Shown here: positions 3,496 through 45,069 of the stretch, in pieces
How the letters are laid out: each line of letters begins with the position of its first letter
Numbering within the stretch: the first letter of the stretch is position 1
The notes under the pieces: model-generated
The model's database searches: none
The model's input: only the letters and a program-made list of their open reading frames with translations
What the model was told of the DNA's origin: nothing
IMG/VR virus record: IMGVR_UViG_3300046535_000572
Location: 1 to 46,614 of that record
DNA from: a virus
DNA length: 46,614 nucleotides
Direction: 5' to 3' (one strand)
Program-made: the position numbers and the translations under genes

Positions 3496-3694
3496 TGACC
3501 TTCGGCTCGTTCATGAATTGCAGCTCGGCCTCGAGCGCGACAAGACCCTTCTTCACCGGATCCCAACGAACGTCGGAGCGGGCGCTGATGAGATGAAGCG
3601 CCTCGCGCACAAATTGCTCGGGCTCATCCATCTCAATCTGATGCTCGAGATTCTTGACCATCCTCTCCGCTCCCTTCGGCATGTCATCGCTCAT
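3470..3694 (-). CDS. Small hypothetical protein between TerL and lysozyme
   Basis: 74 residues starting MSDDMPKGAERMVKNLEHQ; acidic and probably helical. ATG 3694 overlaps the TerL stop (ATGA), so translation is coupled. The open frame extends upstream to 3781, but that part lies inside the TerL coding sequence. I do not recognise a family. Position suggests an accessory packaging or lysis protein, but nothing in the sequence proves this. Confidence 0.75.
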   Translation of the reverse strand: MSDDMPKGAERMVKNLEHQIEMDEPEQFVREALHLISARSDVRWDPVKKGLVALEAELQFMNEPKVNDGSSTSE

Positions 3695-18816: not shown

Positions 18817-19166
18817 GCATCGACGATTTGCTAAAGGACAAGGAAACGACGCACGGTCACTTCGACGACACGGCGACTATCGCTCAGACTGTGAAGGCAA
18901 TCATGCGCCGCGGACGCAATTGGGAGGGCCTGCCCAACCCATCGAAGGAGGCGCTTGAAATGATCGCCACCAAGATCGCGCGCATTCTCAACGGCGACGC
19001 CACCGACCCCGAGCACTGGAACGATATTGCCGGCTATTCCCGCCTGCGCGCCAACTCGTTTGAGCCCGGTTACCGGCGTCCCGACGGCGGCATCGAGGCC
19101 GGGATTGCGTCGATCGCCCAGCGGCTGCGGCCGGTTCGCGTCAACGACGAGGGCGGGACGCCGTGA
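18813..19166 (+). CDS. DUF6378-like phage protein
   Basis: 117 residues. The signature KETTHGHFDDTATIAQTVKA, LPNPSKEALEMIATKIARIL and DPEHWNDIAGY matches the DUF6378 family often found beside phage nucleotide and replication genes. The family resembles MazG-like helical proteins, so a nucleotide-related role is conceivable but unproven. ATGA overlap with the upstream gene, GTGA with the helicase. Confidence 0.78.
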   Translation: MSIDDLLKDKETTHGHFDDTATIAQTVKAIMRRGRNWEGLPNPSKEALEMIATKIARILNGDATDPEHWNDIAGYSRLRANSFEPGYRRPDGGIEAGIASIAQRLRPVRVNDEGGTP

Positions 19167-20605
19167 GCCAGCTCGACCCCGTCCAGATCGAGGCGCTCAA
19201 GTTCGCCTCTGGAAAGAAAGGCGTTGGTTTCTTTCTGGAGCAAGGACTCGGCAAAACGCTGATCGCGCTGACCGAATTTTCGTTCCTGGAGAGCCGGGGC
19301 GAGGTCGATCGCATGATCGTCGTCTGCCCGAATAGCTTCAAAGGCGGCTGGGTCGACGAGGTCGAGAAACATGGCTTTCGGTTCGACTCCCACGTCTGGC
19401 GATCGAGCAAGAAGGCCGACGCCGCCGACTTCCTCAATCTCGGCTACCACCCCAAGGGTCCGCCGGTCTTGATCATCAACTATGACGCCGCCCGCATGCC
19501 AGGCGTTACCAGGGCGCTGCAAATTTGGGCGTCCCGCGGCAAGGCATATCTGGCCGTGGACGAGTCGATCCAGATCAAGGGGCCTGGGACAGCCCAGACC
19601 AAGGCAATCCATGCCCTTGCCCCGCTATGCGCGTTCGCGAGGCTCCTGACCGGCCGGCCGCAAACCCAGGGGCCGCATGATCTCTGGGGCCAGCTGCGCG
19701 CGATCGGCCTCTTCCCGATCACCAACTTTTTTGCCTTCCGCGGTCGCTACTGCGTCATGGGCGGCTGGAACGACAAGGAAGTTCTGGCGGCGAAGAACAC
19801 CGTGGAATTGGCGGGGTTCATGACGCCCGCTGTTTTCCAGGCCAAGAAGGCCGATTGGCTCCCGCTGCTCCCGCGCAAGGATTACACGATCCGCGACTAC
19901 CAGATGTCGGCCGAGCAACTGCGCCAGTACCGGCAGATGGAAGAGCAATTCCTACTCGAGATCGAGAGCGGCGTCGTCACCGTCGAGGTCGCCATCGCTA
20001 AATACGCCAAGCTGGCGCAGATCCAATGTGGGTTCATTTATGACGAAGATCGCGTCGTTCATGAGTTGGTGACGCCGGCCAAGAACCCGCGACTGAACCT
20101 GTTGCTGCAGATGCTCCACGAGGAAATCGAAGGCAAAGTCTGCATCGTCTACCGCCATCGCGCCATGCTGCCGTTCTTGCGCGGCAATCTCATCGACCGG
20201 GTCGATCCCGAGACCGGCGAGGTGACCTTGTACGACTGTGCCTGGATCGGCGGCGGCATGAAGCCCGACGAGGTTACCGAGCAGAAGGCGCGCTTCAACG
20301 AGGATCCCGCCTGTCGCATCATATTGCTGCAATGCGACGCCGCTAAATATGGCCATACCTTATTGGGCGGCCCTGGCCCCGACGACAAGTGCCGCACCAT
20401 GATCTTCTTCGAGAACTCCTACAGCGCCGACACCCGCGATCAGATCGAGGACCGTATTCATCGCCGTGGACAGACAGGCGAGTCTGTGCTGTACATTGAT
20501 CTGTCGGGGTCTGATCTGGATCGGCGGATCGTCAAGGCGCTGCAGCGGAAGGATGCGCTGTACCGCAGCGTGTTTCGTAATCTCAAAGTCGCAGAACCAG
20601 CATAG
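19163..20605 (+). CDS. SNF2-type DEAD-like helicase
   Basis: 480 residues, short for SNF2 proteins, as phage versions usually are. Motif I is EQGLGKT (residues 26-32), motif II is AVDES (D133-E134), motif III is LLTGRPQTQGP and motif VI is DQIEDRIHRRGQ. An ATP-driven DNA translocase probably acting in replication, recombination or repair. GTG 19163 overlaps the previous stop, placing it with the VRR-NUC and SSB-like genes in one module. Confidence 0.93.
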   Translation: MSQLDPVQIEALKFASGKKGVGFFLEQGLGKTLIALTEFSFLESRGEVDRMIVVCPNSFKGGWVDEVEKHGFRFDSHVWRSSKKADAADFLNLGYHPKGPPVLIINYDAARMPGVTRALQIWASRGKAYLAVDESIQIKGPGTAQTKAIHALAPLCAFARLLTGRPQTQGPHDLWGQLRAIGLFPITNFFAFRGRYCVMGGWNDKEVLAAKNTVELAGFMTPAVFQAKKADWLPLLPRKDYTIRDYQMSAEQLRQYRQMEEQFLLEIESGVVTVEVAIAKYAKLAQIQCGFIYDEDRVVHELVTPAKNPRLNLLLQMLHEEIEGKVCIVYRHRAMLPFLRGNLIDRVDPETGEVTLYDCAWIGGGMKPDEVTEQKARFNEDPACRIILLQCDAAKYGHTLLGGPGPDDKCRTMIFFENSYSADTRDQIEDRIHRRGQTGESVLYIDLSGSDLDRRIVKALQRKDALYRSVFRNLKVAEPA

Positions 20606-20614: not shown

Positions 20615-21007
20615 ATGGCACGCTACAGTCTCGAAATGGAAATGCGGGCGACCAAATGGCTTCAAGCGATCCGAAAGGCGCAGGAGGAACTCGACAACAT
20701 CGAGATGGACGAGGGGATCCGCAAGACAATCGCTCGCTGCTTGGACGCCGAATTTTCAGAGGCGGTTGAGCGATTCGATGACATGACCATGCGTGAAAAC
20801 GACGGCAAGAAATGGACGGCGGAGGAGGACGAGATCGTCCGCGCCTATCTGGCTCAGAAGCCCATACCGCCGCATTGGCGGGTGGATCACGCGGAATACT
20901 ACACTCAGCGGCGAATTTTAGCGGTTGAACTGTCAAGCAAAGTCCAGCGTAACGAAAAGAGCGTCGAGAAGCGCGCAGTCGCGCTAGGCTTCCGGCATTT
21001 TGGATGA
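20615..21007 (+). CDS. Myb/SANT-like HTH protein
   Basis: 130 residues. Helical N-terminus (WLQAIRKAQEELDNIEMDEG) and a C-terminal domain with KKWTAEEDEIVRAYLAQKP, RRILAVELSSKVQRNEKSVE and KRAVALGF, which follows the SANT/Myb-like HTH layout. Last gene of the replication module; probably binds DNA. Confidence 0.72.
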   Translation: MARYSLEMEMRATKWLQAIRKAQEELDNIEMDEGIRKTIARCLDAEFSEAVERFDDMTMRENDGKKWTAEEDEIVRAYLAQKPIPPHWRVDHAEYYTQRRILAVELSSKVQRNEKSVEKRAVALGFRHFG

Positions 21008-21046: not shown

Positions 21047-21757
21047 ATGAAGAAGCTTCTACTCACGACGGCGCTCATAGCTATCGGGGCCGGCCCGGCG
21101 CTCGCCGCCGACTCGGCGCTGACGCTATGGAACGACGCCAATCCCGGCGGCGCAGTGACCGCCACCGGGACCGGATCGGCGGTCATCTCGGGGTCCAGCC
21201 TTGGCGGCATCACGATCTCGACCAGCGGCGTCGAGCGATCGACCGTTCCCGGCCCCTCCATGACCGAGAGCAACCTGTTCATAACCAACACCACCGGGAC
21301 GGTTCAAGTTCTCGATATCATTGCTGGCACGAATGGATTTCTCGGCCCCGACAACCTCTTCAACGCGTCGGCGACGATCCTGATCGGCACCGGCAGCGCC
21401 GAGCTGACCGGGCAGTTCTTCGTGTCTACGACCAACACGCTGAACGGTACGAATACGGGCCCGGTGATCGGCACGCAGATCGGCGGAACATTCGACTCGG
21501 GACTGCTGACCGGGCCGTTCGCGTTCTCCAGCAATTCGCCGGACGTGCCGTTCTCGGTGAGCGGACTTTACGGGATGGCGGAGGGGCTGCAACTGACCCT
21601 CCAGCCGGGAGCGTTTGTCGGCGTGCAAAGTATCTCGATGAACGCCGTCAACGGGGTGCCGGAGCCGTCGACCTGGGTGATGATGGGCGGCGGGTTCGCT
21701 CTTTTAGGCCTCTTGGGTCTGCGTAAGCGTATCAAGACCCCGAGGTTCGCTGTCTGA
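21047..21757 (+). CDS. Exported PEP-CTERM sorting-domain protein 1
   Basis: 236 residues. A clear Sec signal peptide (MKKLLLTTALIAIGAGPALA, cleavage after ALA) precedes a low-complexity, beta-rich body full of T, G, S and N, with no charged catalytic pattern. The C-terminus is a PEP-CTERM signal: VPEPSTWVMM (V204-M213), a hydrophobic helix, then LRKRIK. PEP-CTERM tails are recognised and cleaved by an exosortase in Gram-negative hosts that make exopolysaccharide. Ribosome binding site GAAAGGG. Function unknown; see the paired gene at 21847. The phage encodes no exosortase, so the host must supply it. Confidence 0.9.
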   Translation: MKKLLLTTALIAIGAGPALAADSALTLWNDANPGGAVTATGTGSAVISGSSLGGITISTSGVERSTVPGPSMTESNLFITNTTGTVQVLDIIAGTNGFLGPDNLFNASATILIGTGSAELTGQFFVSTTNTLNGTNTGPVIGTQIGGTFDSGLLTGPFAFSSNSPDVPFSVSGLYGMAEGLQLTLQPGAFVGVQSISMNAVNGVPEPSTWVMMGGGFALLGLLGLRKRIKTPRFAV

Positions 21758-21782
21758 GACCCCTCAAGGGCAGCGAATGGGA

Positions 21783-21816
21783 GGGGAGGGCAGATCCGTT
21801 GGGGCTCGCCCTCCCC
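21783..21816 (+). promoter_or_regulatory. GC hairpin between the two PEP-CTERM genes
   Basis: GGGGAGGGC (21783-21791) and GCCCTCCCC (21808-21816) form a perfect 9-bp stem with a 16-base loop. No T-run follows. It may attenuate transcription or stabilise the upstream mRNA. A similar hairpin follows the second gene. Confidence 0.6.
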
Positions 21817-21846
21817 CGACAAACAAGACGAAAGGAAAGAAACAAA

Positions 21847-22659
21847 ATGAAAAAGCTTCTTCTCGCTACCGCGCTGTGCGCGCTCGCCGCTCCCGCTTAT
21901 GCGCAAGTGGTCGAGGACGACCCGCTGCACCTCTGCTACACCACCGGCTGCAGCGCCTTTGGCGGCGTCACCATCTCGACCTTGGGCGGCGGCGGCGGCC
22001 TGTCGGGGTTTGGCGTCTCGTCCTCGCCCGCGCCGCAGACTGGGACGCTATGGTTCGCGCTTCTGGTCCCCGACAATGAAAACGAGGTGACCCTGCCGAC
22101 GCTTTCCGGCACCCTCAACGGCAATCCGATCGCCGGCATCGGCTCGCTGATCCCCGAAGGCCTGTTCGCCAGCGGGACGGACTTGGTGGCGCAGGCTTCC
22201 GTCAAGGCGGCCCTTGGCGGATTGAGCGCATCGCCGCCCAACCCATTCTCGGCTTTCTCAGGCGCGACGCTGTTGGAAGACCCGACCTTCGACGGGCTGG
22301 ACTACAGCGTATATTTGGTCAGGGTGGGGAACATCACCACGGGGACGCAAGCGGGGCAGACGTCGACGCTGGACAACTCGTTCACACTCAGTGGCGGTAG
22401 CTTCACGCTTGGCGCAAACTCGTTTGCCGGCGTCGGCGGCGGTTCGATCATCACGGCGTTCATGGTGGAGTCGGTGACCCATGGGCCGAACACCACGCTT
22501 GAACTCGTTTCGACGGCACAGTCGAGCGCACTGCTGGTCACGCCGTTCAGTGGTCCGGTAGTTCCCGAGCCCTCGACTTGGGCGATGGGGATCGCGGGGT
22601 TTGGTCTTCTCGCTCTGCTTGGGTTGCGTAAGCGTCGCGTATCGAGGTTCGCTGTTTGA
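21847..22659 (+). CDS. Exported PEP-CTERM sorting-domain protein 2
   Basis: 270 residues. Signal peptide MKKLLLATALCALAAPAYAQ, then a mature body with a short cysteine pair (HLCYTTGCSAF), GGVTISTLGG and long beta-rich T/G/S stretches. The C-terminal PEP-CTERM signal is VVPEPSTWAM (around P240), then a hydrophobic helix and LRKRRVSRFAV. The first and second proteins share the signal peptide start, a GG(I/V)TIST motif and the last residues RFAV, so they look like diverged duplicates. I chose ATG 21847 after AAAGGAAAGAAACAAA; an ATG 48 bp upstream lacks a signal peptide start. Confidence 0.9.
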   Translation: MKKLLLATALCALAAPAYAQVVEDDPLHLCYTTGCSAFGGVTISTLGGGGGLSGFGVSSSPAPQTGTLWFALLVPDNENEVTLPTLSGTLNGNPIAGIGSLIPEGLFASGTDLVAQASVKAALGGLSASPPNPFSAFSGATLLEDPTFDGLDYSVYLVRVGNITTGTQAGQTSTLDNSFTLSGGSFTLGANSFAGVGGGSIITAFMVESVTHGPNTTLELVSTAQSSALLVTPFSGPVVPEPSTWAMGIAGFGLLALLGLRKRRVSRFAV

Positions 22660-24103: not shown

Positions 24104-24199
24104 ATGTTTATTCACGCCTTGCCGCTTTGGCTCATCGTCGTCGTCTGCGTAATTCTCTTCATCGGCGCGTTTATGAACGCTGGAGATCAGGGCGAGTAG
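24104..24199 (+). CDS. 31-residue single-span membrane peptide
   Basis: ATG 24104 to TAG 24197-24199: MFIHALPLWLIVVVCVILFI, then GAFMNAGDQGE. Starts one base after the previous stop. Its last 13 bp overlap the end of the convergent ejection-protein gene. Last gene of the rightward operon. Confidence 0.6.
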   Translation: MFIHALPLWLIVVVCVILFIGAFMNAGDQGE

Positions 24200-25695
24200 G
24201 CGGCCCATGGATCCGGTGGTTTAGCTTCCACTCCCGTTCCTAGCGCCCCAATGAGCCTCCTGACCGGCGCAGCCGGCTGCATGTCGATCGGCGGCGTCCT
24301 CGCGCCCGTCCCTGTCGCAACCAGGGCGGCGTCGATGGCGCGCTGCTTGGCGGCGTTGCTCCCCGCGTTCCACATGGCCCCGGCTCCTGCGCCTGCCGCC
24401 TTGACGCCAGACATTCCCGCCGCGCTCACGGGGTATCCGCTCAATGCAACAACCGCCGGAACAGCCTTATTGCTCAGATCGCCCCATAGGGATGATCCTG
24501 CCGCCTTGGCCCCCGCCACAAGCGGGTTGGTCGACGGGATCGTCGGCTTCGGCGCGAGGGCGGCAAGGTTCTGCACCGATTCCCTGCCCTCCGGAGTGAA
24601 CCGCATGCGGGGGTCGTTAATCTTGGCGGCTGCTTCTGCGGGCGCTTTGTTGATATTCGTATTCGCAAGCCAATCGTGATCCCCGAGCGCGGCATGCGCG
24701 TCCATGAAGGCGTTGTTCAGCCGCGCCGCCTCGCCCACTTGATGACCAGTGATTGGGGTGTTCGTCGCCAGGATGCCCGTAGGCCCATCGATTAGGTTGT
24801 CGCGGATCTTGGCGGCATAAACATTGTCTGCTTTGGTGCGCACATTGTCGAAGATATTGCGAGAGAATCCGTTGATCACAGAGGCGGGAGTTCCGGCCTG
24901 ACCGTTGCTGATATTCTCTGCCTTCTGTTTGGCGACCGCCAATTCCATATCATTGGAAAGAGCTGCGCGCTGACTGCCATCGAGCGCCGCCCTCGCATTA
25001 TCCCATGCCGGCGTGACATGGGCCGGATTGAATCGCGGCGCTTCCAGGTCGGTGAGCGCCTTCGCCTTGTTCGCCTCGAGCACGTCGCGCGCCGGCATGG
25101 CGGGAGGCTTGCCCGCGGGCCGACCCCCGAGAGAGTTGAAGCCCGCGCCGAGGAGCGTACTGAGCGCCATATTCCCGGGCGTAGGCGTCTCCCCTCGACC
25201 AGTATCCCCCATGAGGTTCATCCCCAGGCCTTCGCCGCCGCCGACGATCAGGCGCGACAGCCAAGGACCGACCCGGGTCGAGGCGAGGGCCCTGGTCGCG
25301 CCTGCTCCCGCGCCAAGAAGGCCAGCAGGAAGTCCGCCGACCATATTGGCTACGGTGCTATAGACCGGACCAAGAGCCGAATTGGCTTGTTCCGTTTTGG
25401 CCCGCTCCTCCGCCCGCGCGGCCTCGAACTGCGAGCCCATCGTCGCCTCGTCCTTGGCGATTGGCCCCGAGGCATTGCCGCCGAATACGCTGGGGTACAT
25501 GGCCGGCAGGATGGTGCGCCACCCGGCGACGAGATTGTCGCCGACGCCAAAGGTGTTCGCTGCGGCGCGGCCCAAATTGGACACCACTTGTCCCGCGTGA
25601 TGCCGCGCGTTCTCAGCTGCCACACCGGGGTCATCCCCAAGGTCGATGCCTTGCAGCGGGCCTAGATCGACACCGTCAAGCGGTCCAGCAGCCAT
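24187..25695 (-). CDS. Internal virion (ejection) protein, last late gene
   Basis: 502 residues. The N-terminus repeats GVDLGPLQGIDLGDDPG. Two glycine/alanine-rich hydrophobic segments follow (VANMVGGLPAGLLGAGAGAT; later AVPAVVALSGYPVSAAGMSG). The central region is helical (ALSNDMELAVAKQKAENISN, VGEAARLNNAFMDAHAALGD). The amphipathic, membrane-active composition and the position after the transglycosylase fit a protein ejected with the DNA. No family assigned. TAATG coupling with the upstream gene. Confidence 0.68.
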   Translation of the reverse strand: MAAGPLDGVDLGPLQGIDLGDDPGVAAENARHHAGQVVSNLGRAAANTFGVGDNLVAGWRTILPAMYPSVFGGNASGPIAKDEATMGSQFEAARAEERAKTEQANSALGPVYSTVANMVGGLPAGLLGAGAGATRALASTRVGPWLSRLIVGGGEGLGMNLMGDTGRGETPTPGNMALSTLLGAGFNSLGGRPAGKPPAMPARDVLEANKAKALTDLEAPRFNPAHVTPAWDNARAALDGSQRAALSNDMELAVAKQKAENISNGQAGTPASVINGFSRNIFDNVRTKADNVYAAKIRDNLIDGPTGILATNTPITGHQVGEAARLNNAFMDAHAALGDHDWLANTNINKAPAEAAAKINDPRMRFTPEGRESVQNLAALAPKPTIPSTNPLVAGAKAAGSSLWGDLSNKAVPAVVALSGYPVSAAGMSGVKAAGAGAGAMWNAGSNAAKQRAIDAALVATGTGARTPPIDMQPAAPVRRLIGALGTGVEAKPPDPWAAYSP

Positions 25696-27215
25696 TACGG
25701 AACCCCAGAAATGTCATAGCCATTCCCGCGCACACCTTCTAAAATCTTAGCGCGTCTATCAGGGTGCGCAGCGATAGCTTTATTGACGGCATCGAGATCC
25801 GCGCCGGTCAGGGGCTTAAGGCCGCCACCGCCACCGCCCCCGCCACCGCCACCGCCCCCGCCCCCGCCACCGCCCCCGCCACCGCCCTCATCCTGTTTCT
25901 GAGGCTTCTCTTCCGTCCCCCCGTTGTACCAGGGATTGAGTTCGCCGTTTATGGTTGGCTCAAGAAGGTCGCGGTTACCGTGACCGACGAGTTCGCCGGT
26001 CAGCCTGTGGCCGACTACCAGTTCTCTGGTCGCCTGTGCATCCAAGAACCTGTTCTTTAGATTGTCCAAGGAGTCCTTAAACTCCTTATCGGACGCCGCG
26101 GGATCCAGGCCCGCCGTAGCGGCTCGCGCCAATGTGTTAAATTCATTAAGGTTCCTGACGTTCTTGTATTTCTGCAAGCTTTCGCCGGAAAGCGCAGACT
26201 TGATTTTGCTAAGAGCAATGGCGGCATTCTTGACGTCTTCTGGGACAAGGGGATCCCAATACCCCAACGCGCCGGTTGTGGGCAGTGGCGTCGTCATCGC
26301 CCTCCTCGTTACGGCCGGATCCTTGGTTAATACATTGACCCATTGCTGCATATCATTAAACATTGATTTGGACGTATCGTAATCCTCAATCGAGCTATCC
26401 CTGTATTTTTGGATGTCGGTTGCCTGGGTCTTCATGGCATTGCCGGCGGCTTCGTGCTTGTTCTTCCATGTCACGATGTCATCCGGCTTTCGCCCCGCGG
26501 CGATCTCGCCTTGCGCGTAGTTCCGGTAGGCCAGATCCTCCATGCTGCCGCCGCCGGATCCCATCGAGATGATGCCAGACCTGAAGGCCGCGACCTGCTC
26601 TGGAGTCGCACCAGGGTTGGCTTGCTTCCAGCTTTCAGTCGCCGCGTCGGCATCCTTGATGGTGTTTGTATTCGTCACGTTGCCACCGAATGCGGTAGCC
26701 ATCGAGTCCACGAACGGCTTGCTGTCCATCAGCACCCCGGCCTGCTCGTTGGTCACCTTGATCCCGTGATCGCGCAACGCCTGGGCGAATACCCCCACAT
26801 TGGCGTGGAATCGCGCATACTCGTTCTGATCCTGCACCTGTTTCTGGATGCCCATGATGTCCGAAACGTCGCCGATCGGGTTCGCCCCGCCGCCGCCACC
26901 CCGTAGCGCCGCCTGCTTCGACTGCTGCTGCTGCGCGGTCCCAAACGACGCCGCCATCTGGTCGAGACCGCTATTGATCCCCTCCGCGGCGCGGGCGCGC
27001 TGCTGCCGGTCCAAGAGCAACGTCGCCAGATTGGCGCTGACCGGATCCTGTTTTGTCGCCGCGGCGTTCGGCAGCGCCGGCGAACCCGCCGTGGCCGGTG
27101 CCGGTGCCCCCTGTTGAGCCAGGGGATTGGGGTTGGGCGTGATCGCCTTCCCGATATCTGCGTTCTGGTTCGGGTTCATCAGGCCGACGATCGCGTCTCC
27201 AAGACCGTACGCCAT
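25695..27215 (-). CDS. Internal virion protein with 22-glycine run
   Basis: 506 residues, MAYGLGDAIVGLMNPNQNAD at the start. N-terminal part is Q/A-rich and helical (LLLDRQQRARAAEGINSGLD). A run of 22 glycines encoded by 25821-25886 separates it from a small C-terminal domain (LTGADLDAVNKAIAAHPDRR). Position between other ejection proteins suggests an internal or ejected role. Start overlaps the previous stop. Confidence 0.68.
   Translation of the reverse strand: MAYGLGDAIVGLMNPNQNADIGKAITPNPNPLAQQGAPAPATAGSPALPNAAATKQDPVSANLATLLLDRQQRARAAEGINSGLDQMAASFGTAQQQQSKQAALRGGGGGANPIGDVSDIMGIQKQVQDQNEYARFHANVGVFAQALRDHGIKVTNEQAGVLMDSKPFVDSMATAFGGNVTNTNTIKDADAATESWKQANPGATPEQVAAFRSGIISMGSGGGSMEDLAYRNYAQGEIAAGRKPDDIVTWKNKHEAAGNAMKTQATDIQKYRDSSIEDYDTSKSMFNDMQQWVNVLTKDPAVTRRAMTTPLPTTGALGYWDPLVPEDVKNAAIALSKIKSALSGESLQKYKNVRNLNEFNTLARAATAGLDPAASDKEFKDSLDNLKNRFLDAQATRELVVGHRLTGELVGHGNRDLLEPTINGELNPWYNGGTEEKPQKQDEGGGGGGGGGGGGGGGGGGGGGGLKPLTGADLDAVNKAIAAHPDRRAKILEGVRGNGYDISGVP
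25821..25886 (-). repeat. GGN codon run encoding 22 glycines
   Basis: 66 bp of GGC/GGT/GGG codons. The mixed codons show it is not one simple triplet expansion. It makes a flexible linker and is also a place where assembly length errors are plausible. Confidence 0.9.
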
Positions 27216-27931
27216 CAGGCAGTGCTCCTAAGCTTGTCCAGAGTGTCGAAGAAGCCTTTATTGGTGCCCACTCCGCCTGGATGGGCATCCATGAAGGCAC
27301 TCAAAACACTCGGTTGCCCCAACGGATTGGAAGCGGCCACGTTCGCCCCCGGCGTCGTTACTTTGCCGGGATTGGCCAGCGCATCGAGATAAGCCTGCCT
27401 CATGTCGGGGGGAGTAGGAGGTGCACCCTGCCCAGATTGCTGCTGTTGCGGCATTCCGATGGGCAAGCCAGCCGCATAATCCTGATTGGCCTGGGACTTA
27501 TAGTTGGCGAGGCCCTGGATCGCGTCCACCGCGCCGGGATAGTTGGCAATACCTGTATTGACGTTGCCAAACGTTCCGGTGTTATTCGTCTGTGTCGCGT
27601 TGGCGGCGTTAATTGTACCTTGGTTAATTTGCGCCTGGAGGTCGCTGATCTGCTGCGGCGTCGAGGTTAGCGTCGTTCCTTTCGCCCCGCTATCGGCGTT
27701 ATAGGCCGCAAGTTGCTTCTGGTAATCCGCCTGGGCTGTATTGTTGGCGTCAACGAAGCTCTGGATCGGCCTGCCCATCGCATCCGTCGGCCCCTGGGCC
27801 CCCGCGACGCCGGTGTAGAAACCCGGCAGGTCAAGCGGATTATCCTTGTATTTAGGATTGATGTATTTGTTGGGCTGAAACATCTGCAGCAGCCCCATGT
27901 CGAGGATTGGATTATCGCTGCCTTCAGACAT
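27215..27931 (-). CDS. Q/N-rich late protein, probably internal virion
   Basis: 238 residues. N-terminus MSEGSDNPILDMGLLQMFQP, a central Q/A/N/T-rich region (QQISDLQAQINQGTINAANA) and a globular end (VLSAFMDAHPGGVGTNKGFF). No family recognised. TAATG coupling on both sides. Confidence 0.7.
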   Translation of the reverse strand: MSEGSDNPILDMGLLQMFQPNKYINPKYKDNPLDLPGFYTGVAGAQGPTDAMGRPIQSFVDANNTAQADYQKQLAAYNADSGAKGTTLTSTPQQISDLQAQINQGTINAANATQTNNTGTFGNVNTGIANYPGAVDAIQGLANYKSQANQDYAAGLPIGMPQQQQSGQGAPPTPPDMRQAYLDALANPGKVTTPGANVAASNPLGQPSVLSAFMDAHPGGVGTNKGFFDTLDKLRSTA

Positions 27932-28785
27932 TAGCCGTATCCCGCTGAGTTAAGAGTCATGCCTGGAATCTGGGGGCCCGCCTCCCAGCCGTATGGCCGT
28001 GTGCCCCATGACAAGGGCTTCGCGGCCAGGGACTGGACCGTGTTGTACAACTGCGCCGCGGGGGCCGCCATCTGCGCCATGGGATCCTGCGGCGGGGCGA
28101 ACTGGGCCGGCTCCGGCGCGGCTTTCTGTTGGTCGCCCTTCTTCCCACTCATTTCCTCTAGGCCGCCGGTTATGTTCTCCAACGGCGTCTTGCCTTTGAC
28201 CTCGTTGCCCTTCGCATCCGTCGTTGATTGAGCAGGGGTGTTTAATTTATCCCAGAGGCCCTGTGGCGGCGCGGGCGCGGCGGCGGGAGGATTGGCGGCA
28301 TTGACTGCGGCCGAGGTGTAGGGATCTCCCGCCGTGGGAGGCGTCAAGGTGTGGGGCGGATGGACAACCCCGGGCACGGAGGTCAGCGACGTCCCGCCCT
28401 GCGGAGAGCCTTGAGCGATAGCCATCGCCTGGCCCATGTACGGCTTATAGGCTCCGCTATTGTAAGCTCCCCAGTCGCTGAAATTGCCGCGCCTCGCAAA
28501 GAGGGCGTGCGCCGCCGCCATGCTCGCGCCGGGATCTTGCCCAACGGTCTTCCAGTTTTCCCCGCCAATCAAACCGGCATTGGCCCCGTTGATCTGCATC
28601 AAGCCGACGCTGCCGCCGTGCGGATCGTCAGGGTTAAAATTATTGACGATCCCCTTACTTTCCGGTCGCGAAAGCGCCGCCGCAGTCGCCGCCTCGACCC
28701 CCGGCTTAAACCCTTTCTCGATGGCTAACTGATATGCTTCGGCAAGAGTCAGTTGTCGTCCTGGTTGACCTCCGAGAAAACTCAC
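27931..28785 (-). CDS. Virion lytic transglycosylase-like protein
   Basis: 284 residues. The N-terminal 130 resemble an SLT/lysozyme-like transglycosylase: AAALSRPESKG with E42 as catalytic candidate, then GGSVGLMQINGANAGLIGG (the G-x-M-Q-x-N motif) and WGAYNSGAYKPYM. The rest is proline/alanine-rich. It would cut peptidoglycan locally so the ejection proteins and DNA can cross the envelope. ATGA overlap with the large gene upstream. Confidence 0.85.
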   Translation of the reverse strand: MSFLGGQPGRQLTLAEAYQLAIEKGFKPGVEAATAAALSRPESKGIVNNFNPDDPHGGSVGLMQINGANAGLIGGENWKTVGQDPGASMAAAHALFARRGNFSDWGAYNSGAYKPYMGQAMAIAQGSPQGGTSLTSVPGVVHPPHTLTPPTAGDPYTSAAVNAANPPAAAPAPPQGLWDKLNTPAQSTTDAKGNEVKGKTPLENITGGLEEMSGKKGDQQKAAPEPAQFAPPQDPMAQMAAPAAQLYNTVQSLAAKPLSWGTRPYGWEAGPQIPGMTLNSAGYG

Positions 28786-30929
28786 GCCAGCCCTCCCATC
28801 ACCTTGGGGTGCCGCTTGGTGTTGGCGAGCGCGCCGGAGATGCCACGAGCGCCCGCGCGCGGCGCGGAGGTGGACCGGTGGCTGACCGGCGGCAGCATGG
28901 CGTTGAGGGCGGCGATCTTGTCGCGCCCGACATGTTGGGCCGCGCGCGGCGTCAGAACCGCCTCCCCCGGCGTCAGCATGGACGGGACCGTGTCTTCCAT
29001 GCCCTGTCCCGGCACCGTAGAGACCCCGCCCGCGTAACCGGTGCGGAAGTACCCCATACTGGGCGCACCCCAGCCAGGGGGCAGCTGTGAGGCTCCTGAC
29101 GCCGCCTTCTTCGGAGACCTGGATTCCATCATCTGCGACAGGCCCTCGTCGATATTATTGGCGGCGTCGGCCGTTTTGTCCCTGAAGGCGTCCCCGCCCA
29201 TGATCTGATCGCCGAGATCGGCGTCGTCCATGTTGGGAGCCTGGACGTTATCGGTTCCGAAGGCGAACTGCTTCCATGCTGGGAATGTCCTTGGATCAGC
29301 AAATGGCGCTGCACGGGGGTCATTGAGGACCGCTCGCCCAGCAGTGCGGGAGTACATAGGCCCCATATGATCGGGCGAAGCCTGTCGCTCCGCTGCTGTC
29401 AATGGCGTGTATCGTGGAGGACCCACCATCAATTGCTGCGATTGCCCAGTAGGATAAGTCACTGTCGGCCCTGGCTGGACGTCATCCGTGCCATCAGCGA
29501 ACTTCTGAATCTTCGGCACGCCCGCGCCCTTCGGCAGGCGCGTCTTGGGCACGAACGCCGACAGAGCGCCGATGCCCTTGGCCACGCCCGGGCTCGAGGG
29601 CGGGGTGAAGGCGGCGAGGGACGGAGGCACATAGGACGTCCCGCCGGCATATCCCTTGATCGCCAGCTTGCCCTTGGCACCCACCTTGGCGACGTCGTCG
29701 GGATATTTCTCCTGCACCTCCTGCGCCATCGGCCCCACCACCTTCGGGTACGATTTTGGATCGCCTTTGTAACGGTAGGCGTGCATCTCGAGCCCACTCT
29801 TGGGATCCTTGCCGAGCTTGGTGATGTCGGTCTTCATCGACCTGTCCGACGCCTGCCAGAGGCCGGCCGCGGTCTTAGCGCCGCCCATGACAAGGCTCGC
29901 CCAGTCGGTCGGGGTCGTCGTCGTGGTGTTCGACTGTCCCGAGGTCGAGGTGTCGTGCGGCGTCATGCCGAGCGAACTCTCGAGCACGCCGAGCTGCTGC
30001 TGCGGATAATTGAACGCCTGATTGAACTTCGCCATCTGGGAGTTGATTTCGTTCTGCGCCTGCATGCTCTGGCCCGCGCCGGCGGACTGCAGCATGTTGA
30101 AGTTGGCGACGTTGTTCTTGCTCATCGCGTCGCCGGTATTGGTCAGCCCATACGACGCCTGGATGCCGGAGTTGACCGCCGCCTGCTGCGCGGCCTGATT
30201 CTGCGCCGAAGTCGTGTTCAGCGCCCCAGCATTGAACTGCCCCATATTATTAGCGGCGTTCATGTTCTGCAGGCCGACCGTGTTCGCCTGGTTGGCGTTG
30301 AACTGACCCATGTTGTTGGCTTGGCCGACGTCGAACTCGCTCGCCTGCCGCGCCTGGTTGTAATTGGCGTTATTCAACTGCGCGGCCATCTGCGCCATGT
30401 CCATCGCGCCCTGCGCCTGGGTCACGCCTTGCTGAATGCCCTGCCGACTGCCGCCGAACGCATTGGCCGACGACGCCGCGTTCTGCTGCGCGTTCTGGTT
30501 CAGACCCAACTGCTGCTGCATGATCGGCAGGGTCGCGTTGATGACCGACTGCGTGTACGGCGACATGTACGCGCCCAGATTGCTGGACCCCGTCTGCGAT
30601 AATCCCGACTGCGCCGCCGTCACCGGATTCGCCAACGCCGACTGCGCCGCAGTGGTCATCATCGGCGACGTGTTCATCGCATTGAGGTAGCCAGCCGACG
30701 CCGCGTTGTACTGGTCCGCCCCTACATTGCCGCTATTGGCCGCGACATCCCACGACTGCTGCGTCTGCGGCGCGACGTCCGCAACCATCTGCCCCTGATA
30801 TTGCTGCAGCGGCTGCATCGCCACGTTCTGGGCGTAAGCGTAGTTCTGCTGACCAGCATCCGACATCCATTGCGGGATCTGATTGATCTGGTTGGTTGTG
30901 GTGTCGGAAGTGGTGCTGCCGCCGCCCAT
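28782..30929 (-). CDS. Large virion protein with internal S74 domain
   Basis: 715 residues from ATG 30929 (MGGGSTTSDTTTNQINQIPQ). Residues 1-340 are extremely rich in Q, N, A and M with repeats such as NNMGQFNA and NAANNMGQFNAGA, typical of podovirus ejection or tail-hub proteins. Around residues 361-425 lies a Peptidase_S74 intramolecular chaperone domain: SDRSMKTDITKLGKDPKSGL, YRYKGD and VGPMAQEVQEKYPDDV. It is followed by about 290 residues with KFADGTDDVQPGP and TVPGQGMEDTVPSML, the latter a motif common in tail proteins. S74 domains normally sit at the extreme C-terminus and cut themselves off. Confidence 0.82.
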   Translation of the reverse strand: MGGGSTTSDTTTNQINQIPQWMSDAGQQNYAYAQNVAMQPLQQYQGQMVADVAPQTQQSWDVAANSGNVGADQYNAASAGYLNAMNTSPMMTTAAQSALANPVTAAQSGLSQTGSSNLGAYMSPYTQSVINATLPIMQQQLGLNQNAQQNAASSANAFGGSRQGIQQGVTQAQGAMDMAQMAAQLNNANYNQARQASEFDVGQANNMGQFNANQANTVGLQNMNAANNMGQFNAGALNTTSAQNQAAQQAAVNSGIQASYGLTNTGDAMSKNNVANFNMLQSAGAGQSMQAQNEINSQMAKFNQAFNYPQQQLGVLESSLGMTPHDTSTSGQSNTTTTTPTDWASLVMGGAKTAAGLWQASDRSMKTDITKLGKDPKSGLEMHAYRYKGDPKSYPKVVGPMAQEVQEKYPDDVAKVGAKGKLAIKGYAGGTSYVPPSLAAFTPPSSPGVAKGIGALSAFVPKTRLPKGAGVPKIQKFADGTDDVQPGPTVTYPTGQSQQLMVGPPRYTPLTAAERQASPDHMGPMYSRTAGRAVLNDPRAAPFADPRTFPAWKQFAFGTDNVQAPNMDDADLGDQIMGGDAFRDKTADAANNIDEGLSQMMESRSPKKAASGASQLPPGWGAPSMGYFRTGYAGGVSTVPGQGMEDTVPSMLTPGEAVLTPRAAQHVGRDKIAALNAMLPPVSHRSTSAPRAGARGISGALANTKRHPKVMGGLA

Positions 30930-30930
30930 C

Positions 30931-31290
30931 TTACATGTCCCTTTGATAGACGTAATTCTTCGCCTTGACTTTCCAGCCGCGGCGGCGCGCGTCAGGCATC
31001 CAGCCGGTGCGACCATAGGCCTGTATCACGCTCGCGCCTACTTCCGCGGCGAAGATCAGAATGCGATCATGCAGAATGCGAGCCTCATCGAGCCGTCCCA
31101 CGACAGCAAGAACCTCAACAACCTTGGCGCGCGGGTACTGGGCAATACGAGTCAGGGCCCACGATTCGCCCTCGACGAACGACTGCATCCTGCCGTCTGC
31201 TATCAGGTCCAGAATGTCGTTGAGCGTATACAGGCCGCCCATGCGGTCGAGGACGCGAGCAAGCTTGGCATGATAGGGGTGCACGGTCAT
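30931..31290 (-). CDS. Conserved late protein upstream of the S74 gene
   Basis: 119 residues: MTVHPYHAKLARVLDRMGGL, YTLNDILDLIADGRMQSFVE and GRTGWMPDARRRGWKVKAKN. This looks like a family frequently encoded next to podovirus ejection genes and recalls GNAT-like folds, but I cannot state its function. ATGA overlap upstream; one base separates its stop from the next start. Confidence 0.7.
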   Translation of the reverse strand: MTVHPYHAKLARVLDRMGGLYTLNDILDLIADGRMQSFVEGESWALTRIAQYPRAKVVEVLAVVGRLDEARILHDRILIFAAEVGASVIQAYGRTGWMPDARRRGWKVKAKNYVYQRDM

Positions 31291-31985
31291 GGCAACCCCG
31301 ACACGGTCAGGCTGTAATTGCTGATCGCTCCCGCGCCACCGATGCCCCTTATGGCGATGTCGAACCAGTAGCTCGCCGCCACCAATGGCGCACCGACCCC
31401 CGAAGCCGAGAAGCTCCCCGAAGCCCCCGCCGTCGGGGCAACGAACGCAGCCGGCGAACCAATCATTGTCCCAGCCAGAGCCGCGCCGGTGGTCGGGGGC
31501 GTCCCCGTGCCGAAGCAGACCACAACATCGGTCTCGCCGTTGGTGACGGTGTTGGAGATCCCCCCAACCGCCACCGCTATCGCCTGATACTCCCCCTGTG
31601 GGGTAAAGGTGATCGCCAGCCCAACCATATGATAGGCGGAGCCACTGGTTGCCTGCGACCCAACGCGCGAGCGCGTCTCGATGTTTGTCGTAGTTATTGG
31701 CGAGAAGGTGATGACCGGCGTCGTCTCCTTGCCGGTCCCAGGCGTTATCGCAGTCGAAAGCAGCAACCCGGCGTCATTGACCGAGAACTTGAAAACCCTG
31801 CCGCCAAGGGACGTCATATAAACGTGCGGCGTCGAGGACTGCAGACCGAACCTGTCGGTAAAGCTGGTGCGGCACCACAGTGAAAACCGACGCAGGTAAT
31901 CGGGCAGCGCCTGGGGCACCCCCGGCAACGGCGGCAGATCGGGCGGCGGCAGCGCGGAGGGAGGGGTGACCGTCGTGGCGACCAT
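31287..31985 (-). CDS. Virion protein, beta-rich
   Basis: 232 residues. Proline-rich start (PPSALPPPDLPPLPGVPQAL), then beta-rich sequence with GLAITFTPQGEYQAIAVAVG and a glycine-rich end. Coupled with the nozzle-like gene upstream. No family recognised; probably a tail component. Confidence 0.65.
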   Translation of the reverse strand: MVATTVTPPSALPPPDLPPLPGVPQALPDYLRRFSLWCRTSFTDRFGLQSSTPHVYMTSLGGRVFKFSVNDAGLLLSTAITPGTGKETTPVITFSPITTTNIETRSRVGSQATSGSAYHMVGLAITFTPQGEYQAIAVAVGGISNTVTNGETDVVVCFGTGTPPTTGAALAGTMIGSPAAFVAPTAGASGSFSASGVGAPLVAASYWFDIAIRGIGGAGAISNYSLTVSGLP

Positions 31986-33805
31986 CAGCGGTCTCCCCGC
32001 GGCACGACGTCGATCAGGTGGGCCCCAACCGTCACCGGCAAGACTTCTGGGCCAATAATCTCGAACCGGAGCCGGATGTCGCGGCCGGTGGTCCTGAAAT
32101 CAACGTATCCGTCTGGCCGCACCTGGGCCGGTTCAGTCTGGTTCTCGGGCACCCCCGCACTGCGCGAATTGCGATAAAATAACCTGTACTGGACATTCGT
32201 GATGTCGCCCTCGATGTCGGGGATCATCTGCTTGACCGTCATCAATTGCGGGCCGAGGTTGAGGTCGAAGGTCTCCGCAAACGGTAAATCTGCGTTGCCG
32301 TAGACCGAGCCAAGCTCGTGGCGAAAGGCGACGAGACCATCGGCCATGATGGTGTAGGCGTTATAGGCCGAGGTGTTGCCGGCGGAACGCGACATCTGCG
32401 CCTGTGAGAACCATCCCTCTTTATAGTTGTAGATCATCGCCCTGGTGTTGTGCAGCTGGCCGACCTGCGGATAAAACCACCAGAACTCATTGAAGTCGCT
32501 GACATGCGCGCAGCAGGCCTCCTCACGCACATTCAAAAGCTCAATGTCGTCGAGGATCCACGGGCGAATCAGACACACCACCGGCAGGATCGAGGTGCCG
32601 TCATAGGAATACAAACCCTGGTCCGACATCCAGATCGCCATCGCGGTCGTCGTGACCATGCTCTGTGGACTCCACGGAGCACAGTTGTCGCCAATTTCCT
32701 CCGCGTTGTAGATGTACGGGGCCCCCAAGAAGCGCGATCGATAACATTTCTTCCCGGTCCAGAGCAGCGTTCCCGTCCTGGTGGAGAGCGCGGTGATGAT
32801 CGGACTCGCCGGCTCAAGGTCGAGGAAGCCGGATTGGGAAACGACATTGCTATAGTCCCAAGCGCCTGGGTTCTCCTGGTCACACCAGGCGAAGCGATTG
32901 AAGCCGCCGCCGCCATTGGATGCCGTACTGTCGGTGCCGTCCCCAAACGACCCGCAAATGATAATGAAGCGTTCCGGCGTGATGACGAAGCAGCGCCCGA
33001 ACGGCACCGTCCCGCGACCTGCGTCAGCCACCTGCGCAGCCGCGGGAATAAACGCAAAATCCGGAGCGGTGGTGAACGACAATTTATCCTTGATATGCTT
33101 CCGGATGGTGCTGGCGCTCAACGCGCCCGCCGTCAGGTGCAGCGCCGTGCTACCACTGGGAAACGTCGACACAGTGCCAACAAGCTGCTTGGTCGTATTG
33201 TTGAAGACGCTCATGCCGGCTACGACCGCGCCTGGGTTCGGCTGACCCATGGTTATGGACGTGTCGCCGACAGCCCATGGCAGACTGCCGCGAAGAGTGG
33301 CGACGGTGGATGCCGGCGGAAGCGTCGGGTCGAACTTCAACAGCCGCCCATCGGCCGAGGTCATGGCGTAGAGAATCGAGCCAAAATTATCGAGAGAGTA
33401 TGCGTCCGGAAGCTCGCTGATCTGGTGCGCCACCGGCGGATCCCGCGGCGTGCCGTAAGTCCCCGCACCGTAGTAACCGTCGCCATAGCCGCCGCCCGGC
33501 CCAAAGGGGGGCTCGATCCCGTCAGTCGGCGTGATCTCGGTCAGAGCACCGTTGGTTTCAATGTATAGATTCTGCTCGCATAAATAGGCCGTGTAATACT
33601 GATAATTAAGGTCATACCATCCATGGATCGCCTTGCAGCGGGAAGCGAAAGTGAAGTCATACTGGGCTTGCCCACCCATGGGCGAAAGCTGCCCCTCTGA
33701 CCAGCGCACAAGGTTGACTTCAGCCCAATTGCTCGAGCGTTGCTTTTTGGTGGCTTTGGAAACCACCCCTCCTGGTATTTCGATCGGCTGAAATTTGGTG
33801 GTCAT
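31985..33805 (-). CDS. Tail nozzle / DNA-stabilisation-like protein
   Basis: 606 residues. Starts with FQPIEIPGGVVSKATKKQRS, then WAEVNLVRWSEGQLSPMGG, a motif shared by large podovirus tail proteins that sit below the portal and adaptor (gp10-like or nozzle proteins). Later segments such as CKAIHGWYDLNYQYYTAYLC and LYAMTSADGRLLKFDP suggest a beta-propeller. Size, position and motif support a tail hub; the exact family is not certain. Confidence 0.7.
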   Translation of the reverse strand: MTTKFQPIEIPGGVVSKATKKQRSSNWAEVNLVRWSEGQLSPMGGQAQYDFTFASRCKAIHGWYDLNYQYYTAYLCEQNLYIETNGALTEITPTDGIEPPFGPGGGYGDGYYGAGTYGTPRDPPVAHQISELPDAYSLDNFGSILYAMTSADGRLLKFDPTLPPASTVATLRGSLPWAVGDTSITMGQPNPGAVVAGMSVFNNTTKQLVGTVSTFPSGSTALHLTAGALSASTIRKHIKDKLSFTTAPDFAFIPAAAQVADAGRGTVPFGRCFVITPERFIIICGSFGDGTDSTASNGGGGFNRFAWCDQENPGAWDYSNVVSQSGFLDLEPASPIITALSTRTGTLLWTGKKCYRSRFLGAPYIYNAEEIGDNCAPWSPQSMVTTTAMAIWMSDQGLYSYDGTSILPVVCLIRPWILDDIELLNVREEACCAHVSDFNEFWWFYPQVGQLHNTRAMIYNYKEGWFSQAQMSRSAGNTSAYNAYTIMADGLVAFRHELGSVYGNADLPFAETFDLNLGPQLMTVKQMIPDIEGDITNVQYRLFYRNSRSAGVPENQTEPAQVRPDGYVDFRTTGRDIRLRFEIIGPEVLPVTVGAHLIDVVPRGDR

Positions 33806-34428
33806 GACGCGCGGATGATGAAGTTGATGACGACGTAGGGCGGGATGTTGTTATGAGCAGTTCCAGAGCCGGCCGTATTGGTGGCGGTGATGCCGGTGAA
33901 GGCCGGCTGGGTGGTAATGTCGACGACATTCTGGCCCGCACCCCCGGTGGCGGAATGACCGCCGCCAGATGTGGCCACGACATTGTTGACGGCATGGCTA
34001 TGCTGCTTGTCGGTGATAGGGTGAGTATGGGAGGGCAACTCCGCGGTGGTGAGGACATGCGTCGCCTCGCCGCCGGTCGACGCCAGGGCGTAGCCGGTGC
34101 CCGCGCCGATGGGGAACTTCTGCTGCAGATTGGGCAGCAGGAAACTCCCCCCAGCACCGCCATACGTATAGCCGATAACCGCGAACAGCGCCGCGTAGGT
34201 CGTCGTCGAGAGCGACAAGCCGTTGCAGATGAGCCAGTTGATAGCCGGCCCCGTACTCCCGGCCGCGAACATCGCGATCGAGCCGACCGGCAGACCCGCC
34301 TGCTGATTGGCGAACATCTGCGCGTCGATGGTCACCAGGTCGCCATTGAGCGAATCGCCCCAGGTCGTGGCGGCGTGGCCGACATCCGGCATAACCATGC
34401 GATAATGAACGGTCTGGGTATCAGCCAT
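33802..34428 (-). CDS. Phage tail-collar domain protein
   Basis: 208 residues. Contains the tail-collar pattern: GLPVGSIAMFAAGSTGPAIN, WLICNGLSLS, YGGAGGSFLLPNLQQKFPIG and HTHPITDKQHSHAV, ending IPPYVVINFIIRAS. Such proteins form short fibres or baseplate tips. ATGA/TGATG coupling with neighbours. Confidence 0.9.
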   Translation of the reverse strand: MADTQTVHYRMVMPDVGHAATTWGDSLNGDLVTIDAQMFANQQAGLPVGSIAMFAAGSTGPAINWLICNGLSLSTTTYAALFAVIGYTYGGAGGSFLLPNLQQKFPIGAGTGYALASTGGEATHVLTTAELPSHTHPITDKQHSHAVNNVVATSGGGHSATGGAGQNVVDITTQPAFTGITATNTAGSGTAHNNIPPYVVINFIIRAS

Positions 34429-37400
34429 CAGTACAATTCCGCATCCAGAGCAATATCCCAGATCGCCGACACCGTGCCCACCGCCGTCGCCGTCGCCGTC
34501 GCAACGTAGTTCGAGGGGGTCACCGTTCCGATAGTCAGGGTGTTCATCGAAACAAAAGCAGGATTACTCGTCGCCGGGGCCGGGATGGCGCGCATCGTGG
34601 TGACGAACTGCAGCGTCGCCGACAGCTTCGACCCAATCGGGGTCGTATAGCCGTAGAGCTGCTGCTGCTGCAGGAACTGATAATGGCGCTGACAGTCGCT
34701 CAGATTCTTGGCCAGGGTCGATCGCTCGAACGGCGTCGCGACCGAACCGGTCTCGAGCTTGACGCCGGTGATCTGCATCGTCGCGGCGTTGGTCCTGACA
34801 AGACTGGACGCGCCGGCCGCGCCGATGAAGGATCCGTTCGCCCAGGCATTGGCGGCCCCGCGATTATTGGCCCCCGCCCCGAGATCGAAGAACAGGCACG
34901 CCCCGATCCCGTTGCCGCTCAACGTCCAGGCTCCCGATCCGCCGATGTCCGGTGGAATGGTGACGGCGACCTTCGTCCACACGCTAGGAGACGGAACCAG
35001 GAAAGTGAACGGATAGGAGCGCGACCGCGTACTCGCCCCGTTGCAGATCGCGCCGCTGAAGGTGCCGCTGATCTGTCCGGTCACCAAGACCCAGAACGAT
35101 AGCGTGACCGGCTGTGCCTCCACCGTCCCCCACATGAAGTCGCTGACCATGTCAGCTTCGATCGGCTGACGAAGGACAAAACTGTCGGTCGCGCCAAGAG
35201 TCGGGACAGGAGCTATCGTCGACAGCAACAAGCAATACGGAAACGGCGGCGCGTCGACCGAAGCCGGAGTCGCAATCCGCTGCCACTGAATCTTACTGCT
35301 CTGGGAGGCGTAGTACCCCCAACGGTCTATTGTATAATTGCTGCTTCCTGTTCCTGCCGCGCCGTTGTTGCGCTGATCGATCCGCATGTCGCCGTTGATG
35401 ATGCGATTGCCGGTCGAACCGACGCCGACGAAAGTGTGCGTGGTGGGGTCGACCGCCCCGATCGGCACCCAGGTGTTGGTATTGTCGAGCACCTGGACGA
35501 GTTCAGCCCCCGTCGAGGGGACAATCCCCATCTCCGCCGGCGTGGTCGTCGGCGCAGCCTTAGCGACGACAAGGATCTGATTGGTAAGCGGCGCGGTGAG
35601 CAAGCCCACCGAGTTCTGACCGATGACAAAGCATCCGATGTTGTTGCCGATATCGGAATTTAAGGTGAAGTAGGTCGGCGCATTCGCCGCCCCGGGAATG
35701 ATAACCCCGTTGCTCGCCCACTGGAAGGAAAACACCGGCGGGTCAGTTACGGTCGGCGACCAGCTGCCGGGATTGCAGAGCAGCGTGCTCCCGACCTGGC
35801 TGTTTCCTGAAATGAAGGGTTGACTGTTGATGGTCGGGGGCACCCCAGCGGCAGGCGCAGTTATCGGCCCGATCGAATTGGTCGTGATCGGCGCGGCCGG
35901 CCCATTCACATTGGTCGCGACGACGATGCAGGAGATGCTGGTGCCCAGATCAGCGGTGACCGTAATGTAAGTTGCTATTACGTCCGGTGGTCCGATTACC
36001 GTCGTGTCTCGCTTCCACTGAAAAGTGAAGGTGGGGGAGCCGTTCCAATCCCCCGGATTGCAAGTAAGCGTATTCCCCTGGGTAGCCGATCCCGAAATGC
36101 TCGGCGGGGTATTCACCGTCGGTATCTGGTTCACCAGGACCGTGTTGGTCGTGAAGGACGTCGCGCCGTTCACATTGGTCGCGGTGATGACGCAGCCGAC
36201 ATTTAGCGTGGAGTCGGCGGATGCGGTCGTGTATGTTTGCGACGTTCCGCCAGGAGAGATATTCGTCCCGCCTCGCTTCCATTGATAAGTGAAAGTTGGC
36301 GAGCCGGTCCATACCCCATTATTACAGGTCAAGAGAACGCCGACGTTCTGCGACCCAGACGGAGTGACGCTTGGATTGGTGGTGATCTGCGGAACGTCCA
36401 CCATCGTAATGGCGTTGGTGATAAATGCTGAACTCGTTCCAGCTGTGTTAACCGCCGTCACCGAACAAGTGATAGCAGCTCCTGTATCGGTCGGCCTTAC
36501 GGTTAGATAGTCAGGCGAGTCCGTTCCAACGGGCGTGGCCCCGCGTAGCCATTGATAATGATAGGTGGTCACCGAACCCACCCATGTCCCGTGATCGCAA
36601 TGAAGGGTGCTGGTTACCAGAGTGCTTCCCGAAATGGACGGGACGGGCGTGCCGACGGTGGGAATTAACGTAATCGTTCCCGATCCCGAGGCAGTGATCG
36701 CACTTGAGCCCCCCGCATTGCTGGCGGTAACGACGCAGGTTATGGTCTTGCCGTTCTGGGCGCTTGTGACTACGCAGCTGCTCGACGACGTCGCCTGAAG
36801 AACCGTCGTCCCCGTCGCGACGTCGGTCGCCTGGAATGAGTACACATACCCCGTCGGCGAACCCGTCCACGTCCCCGTCGTGCAATTGAATGTCGTCGGC
36901 ACGGTGGTGGTTGTGCCGGTCGGCGTCAGGGCAGGCAGGTTTGCGCCGCCCGTATTGGTCGGCGGCGCGACGCCACCGCTCGCCGTGTGATACTCCGTCG
37001 ACAGGGTTAGCATCCGGTCGAGGCGGTGAGTGTAAAACAAGTTCAGCGGATTTTGCGAAGCCGCGACCAAAGTCCTTTCATCAAAGAATTTGTTAACGAT
37101 AATTCCGTAGGCGACCCGATGATGTTGCACAACCCCCGACGACTCGGTCAGCATCGCATAATAAGACCCGCTCGCAATCGCGGTAAAATTACGATTTGCC
37201 TTGCTAACCGATATCGCCCCCGTAGTTAAGTCATTAACAACAATGATGCCCTTACCGCCAGTGCCGGTCTTGTACGAAACGGCCCAATAATAACAATGCC
37301 CATTTTGAGGGTTTTGTGGCAGAATGTCAAACAATGAATTCTGCGTTGATCCACCTATGCCAAAGAGAAAGCCATTGGTGCTACTAAAACTAAGCACAGG

Positions 37401-37823: not shown

Positions 37824-37825
37824 GA

Positions 37826-38335: not shown

Positions 38336-38338
38336 GGT

Positions 38339-40900: not shown

Positions 40901-40904
40901 GGTG

Positions 40905-41911: not shown

Positions 41912-41913
41912 GG

Positions 41914-42745: not shown

Positions 42746-42759
42746 GACTCACCTCCATC

Positions 42760-43313: not shown

Positions 43314-43323
43314 ACCTGCTCCC

Positions 43324-45054: not shown

Positions 45055-45069
45055 GGGGTCTCCCCGGGG

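Follow-up and report, generated by a model that had tools for sequence, protein, structure and literature searches.

The locus described here raises the question of why a phage should carry two adjacent genes whose products bear the sorting tail of a bacterial export system, and what such proteins could do for it. The window, namely the whole stretch of 46,614 nucleotides that was analysed, is the entire IMG/VR virus record IMGVR_UViG_3300046535_000572 (46.6 kb), a podovirus contig from a soil virus of bacteria, related to Ochrobactrum phage vB_OspP_OH. Within it, ORFs A and B (Table 1) are both open and arranged in tandem on the plus strand, each preceded by a purine-rich (GA-rich) ribosome-binding site; the start of ORF B is taken as the ATG at 21847, the mechanical ORF beginning with a TTG at 21799. 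A scan for sigma-70 promoters around A and B found none, and neither protein has a family in PHROGs.

Table 1. Coordinates of the two genes, their sorting signals and the surrounding features of the window.
Feature	Position	Strand	Basis or remark
Portal, HNH, lysozyme, terminase large subunit	3..5049	-	phrog_1216, E=1e-109; phrog_2, E=9e-20
SNF2-type DNA helicase, upstream neighbour	19163..20605	+	phrog_62, E=1e-86
Small ORF of 130 aa between helicase and A	20615..21007	+	absent in G003 and G004
Mobile module (A, B and the small ORFs 3' of them), common to the unrelated phage G001	21004..24102	+	four blastn blocks
ORF A, family-A PEP-CTERM protein, 236 aa: signal peptide, 12-strand beta-sandwich, sorting tail	21047..21757	+	PF07589
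Predicted signal peptide of A (MKKLLLTTALIAIGAGPALAA)	21047..21109	+	sequence; helix 3-14 in model; A20 invariant (60-row alignment)
PEP-CTERM tail of A (PEPSTWVMMGGGFALLGLLGLRKRIKTPRFAV)	21659..21757	+	PF07589 residues 204-228; helix 207-228
ORF B, second PEP-CTERM protein, 270 aa, body without sequence-level relation to A	21847..22659	+	PF07589
PEP-CTERM tail of B (PEPSTWAMGIAGFGLLALLGLRKRRVSRFAV)	22564..22659	+	PF07589; 74% nt identity to A tail
Convergent late genes, downstream: SLT, ejection protein, tail fibre, major head protein, scaffold	24187..46427	-	

Both proteins begin with a Sec-type signal as judged by sequence pattern (MKKLLL...ALAAD in A, MKKLLL...AYAQ in B) and end in a common layout, VPEPSTW-hydrophobic-RKR-RFAV; the predicted cleavage site of A holds no cysteine and hence no lipobox. 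Across the 60 alignment rows of family A, the tail residues P205, E206 and G216 are invariant. An earlier note had claimed two tandem genes with a signal peptide and a full PEP-CTERM tail and had proposed a search with the PEP-CTERM model, which bore the claim out: PF07589 is passed by both proteins (24.5 bits for A and 30.6 bits for B, Pfam cut-off 20.7) and TIGR02595 by A (23.3 bits, cut-off 16). The PEPxxWA-CTERM model NF035944 scores 28.6 bits for A and 29.8 bits for B, under its curated cut-off of 35, and the two proteins are therefore placed in the general PEP-CTERM class only. They share with bacterial PEP-CTERM substrates the tripartite tail (PEP motif, hydrophobic helix, basic end), the signal peptide and a low-complexity, beta-rich body, and their tails are nearest, among the matches listed, to those of Bradyrhizobium and other Hyphomicrobiales; unlike the bacterial substrates, they are encoded by phages without an exosortase and exchanged among unrelated phages, and the family-A body did not turn up in the searched set of bacterial genomes.

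The same note had read the shared ends of A and B as a sign of duplication, of which the likeness of the end signals stands and the common descent of the whole genes does not. DNA identity between the two is 74% over the tail-coding part (~10 sd above shuffles), with ~5 sd for the signal-peptide part and ~2 sd for the bodies, and in a profile comparison the alignment is confined to the 33 columns of the tail; whole-gene duplication was thus rejected, the end signals being alike and the bodies not. In the wider set, at least two well-defined protein families are found, A and C, and the partners B, D and E often lie downstream of A. Homologues of B occur in G001 (86-88% aa) and L301 (66% identity). 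A common ancestry of B and the partners D and E is no more than possible, hhalign covering only the last 69 columns, and a broad clustering of all second PEP-CTERM proteins, which gave one loose cluster probably by way of shared signal peptides and composition, was left unused. One genome, G013, carries family C, a PEP-CTERM protein of ~190 aa, twice at distant sites (5722-6285 and 47818-48387).

The window is a phage genome by its gene content, which comprises portal, terminase, head protein, scaffold, tail fibre, primase and helicase, and by an exact direct terminal repeat of 127 bases through which the contig closes on itself, with the caveat that 127 may equal the assembler's k-mer. Its closest cultured relative is phage vB_OspP_OH (55% identity in the head protein, 39% in the portal), which has a like gene order around the helicase and convergent late genes; in that phage, however, the late genes follow directly after the helicase and the PEP-CTERM module is missing, so that relative to it the window carries an insert at 20615-24186 consisting of the 130-aa ORF, A, B and small ORFs. 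Phage OH (NC_070933) further encodes DNA polymerase I, a PurZ-like 2-aminoadenylosuccinate synthetase and a dATP hydrolase, for which neither the window nor four relatives gave a tblastn counterpart; this base-modification module is therefore not shared. On the minus strand of the window, an HNH endonuclease ORF (2667-3134) and the lysozyme ORF (3016-3495) overlap by 119 bases in different frames. A search for a host through the head protein among bacterial genomes gave at best 39% identity and no usable host.

A search with the head protein returned 181 IMG/VR stretches, and 11 near-complete records (the contigs of G004-G014) were drawn from this list, independently of their PEP-CTERM content. 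Six of the 11 hold a PEP-CTERM tail above the Pfam cut-off; one more (G011) has a family-A protein with PETSTW slightly under the cut-off, another (G005) has a family-C-like protein with PELSTW, and the remaining three (G008, G009, G012) show no recognisable PEP-CTERM copy. In G003 and G004, which share the backbone of the window at ~75% nt, A lies immediately 3' of the helicase, an arrangement that argues against a chimera. The gene also occupies other sites across the phages, namely the terminase-portal interval, divergent positions upstream of the portal or terminase, and elsewhere. The early-strand position put forward in the earlier note accordingly describes the phage of the window and does not extend to all of its relatives; its further proposals, that the genes belong to the phage and are not contamination, that the region is no chimera and that homologues should be sought in other phages, are upheld by the closed contig with its 127-base terminal repeat, by phage genes on both sides, by the same arrangement in other phages (A directly after the helicase in G003 and G004, the A-B order repeated in G001) and by the many homologues found in related and unrelated phages. 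In several relatives with the terminase-portal location, a ribbon-helix-helix-like small protein (SVSDIIRRLIDETRGAYLTP) is encoded just 5' of the family-A gene (L275:7765-7980, L299:7080-7295, G006:2916-3113, G011:5449-5631) and may act as its regulator.

The terminase-portal location also bears on whether A could be a lysis protein of the unimolecular-spanin type (phage T1 type), in which an exported N-terminus, a periplasmic beta domain and a C-terminal helix join both membranes at lysis. The topology is alike, with an exported N-terminus, a beta-rich periplasmic domain and a C-terminal membrane helix, and the interval in which several relatives keep the gene is where the window and G003 place the lysozyme. 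However, no lipobox cysteine follows the AxA at the end of the signal peptide anywhere in family A, the tail carries a specific PEP-CTERM motif whose PE is invariant, and the lysozyme of the window is distant and on the opposite strand, with no link of A to a lysis cassette there; such a role is very improbable, above all because there is no lipobox.

Transfer of the genes between phages is indicated by G001, a phage with a terminase and a head protein of families different from those of the window. The window and G001 share four blastn blocks at 75-90% nt (21004-22660, 22789-23108, 23293-23363 and 23946-24095 of the window), with the same A-B order and protein identities of 91-93% aa for A and 86-88% aa for B. 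The terminase of the window is present in only 10 of the 42 family-A records, others having terminases of the phrog_38 type or a divergent phrog_2 type, and at least 13 backbone changes fall on the family-A body tree, a quick tree with several long branches on which short contigs are unlabelled. Family A moves between unrelated phage backbones. In the comparison of the window with G001, A has a dN/dS of 0.175 and B one of 0.096, and other measurable pairs give 0.15-0.32 (overall span 0.10-0.32); these low values mean that A and B are maintained by purifying selection. Two side observations concern G001. In the region ~16814-17634 (L003), the tail of B is out of frame with its body, through a frameshift or a sequencing indel, while B of the window is intact; and at G001:35206-37949 lies a pair of neighbouring long proteins whose starts (MMRWLA...) look like signal peptides and whose N-terminal parts are alike and contain DLGPGPL, possibly further exported phage proteins.

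A search with the alignment of A found ~70 viral contigs holding full-length homologues, and family A comprises 61 non-redundant full-length members, every one of them in a viral contig and all 61 keeping the signal peptide and a PEP-CTERM-type tail. A chance origin of the signals in A and B is excluded, because 61 non-redundant relatives keep both signals and because dN/dS is low for each gene. The scores of the family-A HMM leave a gap: body-level matches (at least ~150 bits) are all viral, and the rest, bacterial PEP-CTERM proteins included, reach at most 58 bits. The body gave no match in 397 Hyphomicrobiales genomes; the matches listed from the genome_contigs scan were tail-dominated, mostly from Bradyrhizobium and other Hyphomicrobiales; plasmids held no match to the family (query L281); and direct tblastn with A and B found nothing relevant in cultured phages, with no body homologue in 50,697 of them. 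Family A thus appears to be phage-specific within the data searched. In a genome labelled Frankia sp. RB7 (L163, L186, L190, L232), the PEP-CTERM genes are of the Bradyrhizobium type, and the label may be wrong or the genome a mixture.

These searches weigh on the reading that A and B are passengers picked up by chance from a host, or that an assembly error placed host DNA in a phage contig, a reading for which the abundance of PEP-CTERM proteins in candidate hosts and the presence of some host-like contigs in IMG/VR could be cited. One such contig, L314 (IMGVR_UViG_2751185896_000001), is recorded as viral but resembles host DNA, with four distinct PEP-CTERM genes whose tails are of the bacterial type; records of this type are not to be counted as phage. 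However, the contig of the window closes on itself, many independent contigs carry flanking phage genes, the body family is missing from the bacterial sets searched and purifying selection acts on the genes, so that the passenger or misassembly reading is already largely refuted and has next to no probability left.

An AlphaFold2 model of A built from 60 sequences (pLDDT 88.9, pTM 0.79) comprises a signal helix, a 12-strand beta-sandwich and a C-terminal helix at 207-228; the model of B (pLDDT 48.9) is not usable. Among solved structures, Foldseek gave weak matches that include carbohydrate-binding modules (CBM22, 61, 16 and 4) and domains of capsule-depolymerase tailspikes, with TM-scores of at most 0.54 on the target side (best TmCBM61) and at most 0.36 on the query side for the structures listed, and beta-sandwiches of this kind are common. 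The model suggests a CBM-like body that may serve a glycan-binding role. Among viral matches to A, tail fibres and tailspikes predominate, which would suit a virion component such as a particle adhesin or decoration protein; however, a signal peptide and a sorting tail would remove the protein from the cytoplasm, where heads and tails are assembled, and the gene in the window lies outside the late structural block, which makes a place in the particle highly improbable.

Three family-A proteins, L277, L278 and L281, have a body ~60% identical to the main clade and a classic PEP-CTERM tail (in L281, VPEPASLGILGLGMLGLGMVQYRRRS) in place of the PEPxxW form, and they nest within the PEPxxW clade on the body tree. 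A classic tail on a conserved body is expected if the tail matches the exosortase of the host, and the simplest reading of these sequences is that the tail may have been replaced to match the exosortase of another host. No exosortase was found in any of 40 phage records, so that sorting would rely on the host, in line with the dependence on a host exosortase that the earlier note had assumed; the PF09721 exosortase is present in 13 of the 17 bacterial genomes with PEPxxW-like tails, the candidate hosts. With several unrelated bodies (the A, B, C, D and E groups) bearing the same tail, and with tails that fit a host type, the proteins might also be imagined as decoys, abundant substrates that would saturate the host exosortase and deplete the PEP-CTERM proteins of the host, the body being a mere carrier. 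The bodies, however, are under purifying selection and, in the model of A, well folded; a conserved body would be needless in a decoy, which leaves this alternative improbable.

A and B are, very probably, phage proteins made as substrates for the exosortase of the host. The bacterial route to which their signals point runs through Sec export, retention by the C-terminal helix, a cut by the exosortase and placement in the outer envelope or EPS (PMC11980579, PMC12188702), and bacterial PEP-CTERM proteins make the attachment of EPS to the cell more stable (PMC9850573, PMC12188702). Along this route, Sec would export A and B, the C-terminal helix would keep them in the inner membrane, and cleavage at the PEP motif by the host exosortase would release the beta-sandwich to the outer envelope or the exopolysaccharide layer, where a body of glycan-binding type would change the infected cell's surface. 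The phage would most probably benefit in that glycan receptors at the surface are masked or tied up, so that progeny are not re-adsorbed by the infected cell or its debris. The suggestions of the earlier note, that such proteins could coat or alter the infected cell surface, block superinfection or disturb exopolysaccharide, are plausible in this light.

The T5 Llp and T1 Cor proteins are superinfection-exclusion lipoproteins that stop re-adsorption. They resemble A and B as small exported phage envelope proteins encoded apart from the structural machinery, but they have a lipobox and use the lipoprotein pathway where A and B have an exosortase tag, and there is no sequence relation. Superinfection exclusion is our first choice of function because known envelope-targeted phage proteins act in this way, T5 Llp being a phage envelope protein that prevents re-adsorption (PMC9586334), and also because the gene is accessory, mobile and differently placed among phages. 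The complete explanation, host-exosortase-sorted phage proteins that alter the surface and thereby exclude superinfection, is held to be moderately probable; receptor masking or exclusion as the main role is itself proposed tentatively, somewhat short of an even chance. Several points count against the explanation: the fold similarity is weak, three of 11 near-complete relatives lack a recognisable copy, the NF035944 score is below its cut-off, and the variable position of the gene (early operon, terminase-portal interval, divergent) implies no single time of expression.

The main rival is that the displayed proteins tether EPS or clump cells, thereby keeping virions near hosts or altering diffusion, as a means of manipulating EPS or flocs. 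The floc protein PepA (Zoogloea, Aquincola; NF033554) is, like A and B, a PEP-CTERM protein and is tied to the interaction of EPS with the cell surface; its overexpression raises bound EPS, lowers soluble EPS and restores flocs (PMC9850573), and in Nostoc without exosortase the adhesion to polysaccharide is abolished (PMC12188702). The CBM-like fold of A would suit such a role, and L277 aligns over its full length to floc_PepA NF033554 at 47 bits. Against this, family-A bodies freed of the signal peptide and tail give no match to floc_PepA, and the neighbourhood of the phage genes held no recognisable EPS genes; tethering or clumping is therefore regarded as rather unlikely. Membership in the floc PepA family itself was rejected, the best score (L277) being at most 47.3 bits with a cut-off of 80 and the match vanishing once the signal peptide and tail are removed.

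In the literature searched, which was mostly non-subscription, no description of phage-encoded exosortase substrates was found; the nearest report is a survey of Yellowstone viruses in which TIGR03118 proteins, bearing a putative exosortase-interaction domain, appear among those acquired from cells (PMC11003980). The PEP-CTERM tag itself is already known, and its use by phages is not described in the accessible literature. Exosortase systems are found in many environmental bacteria, although what most of their substrates do is not known. It is conceivable, and we advance it with reserve, that virulent soil phages of several unrelated lineages draw on a common, phage-specific pool of glycan-binding surface proteins addressed to the host exosortase and swap the tail with the host clade, so that exosortase sorting would be a standard phage route for exclusion or EPS remodelling. 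Phage families that keep exosortase substrates under selection would mark the exosortase-sorted surface as a battleground between phage and host, and proteins of the A and B type are small and testable means of asking what PEP-CTERM display does. If the proposal is true, the sorting tail would also offer a clue to the hosts of uncultured soil phages.
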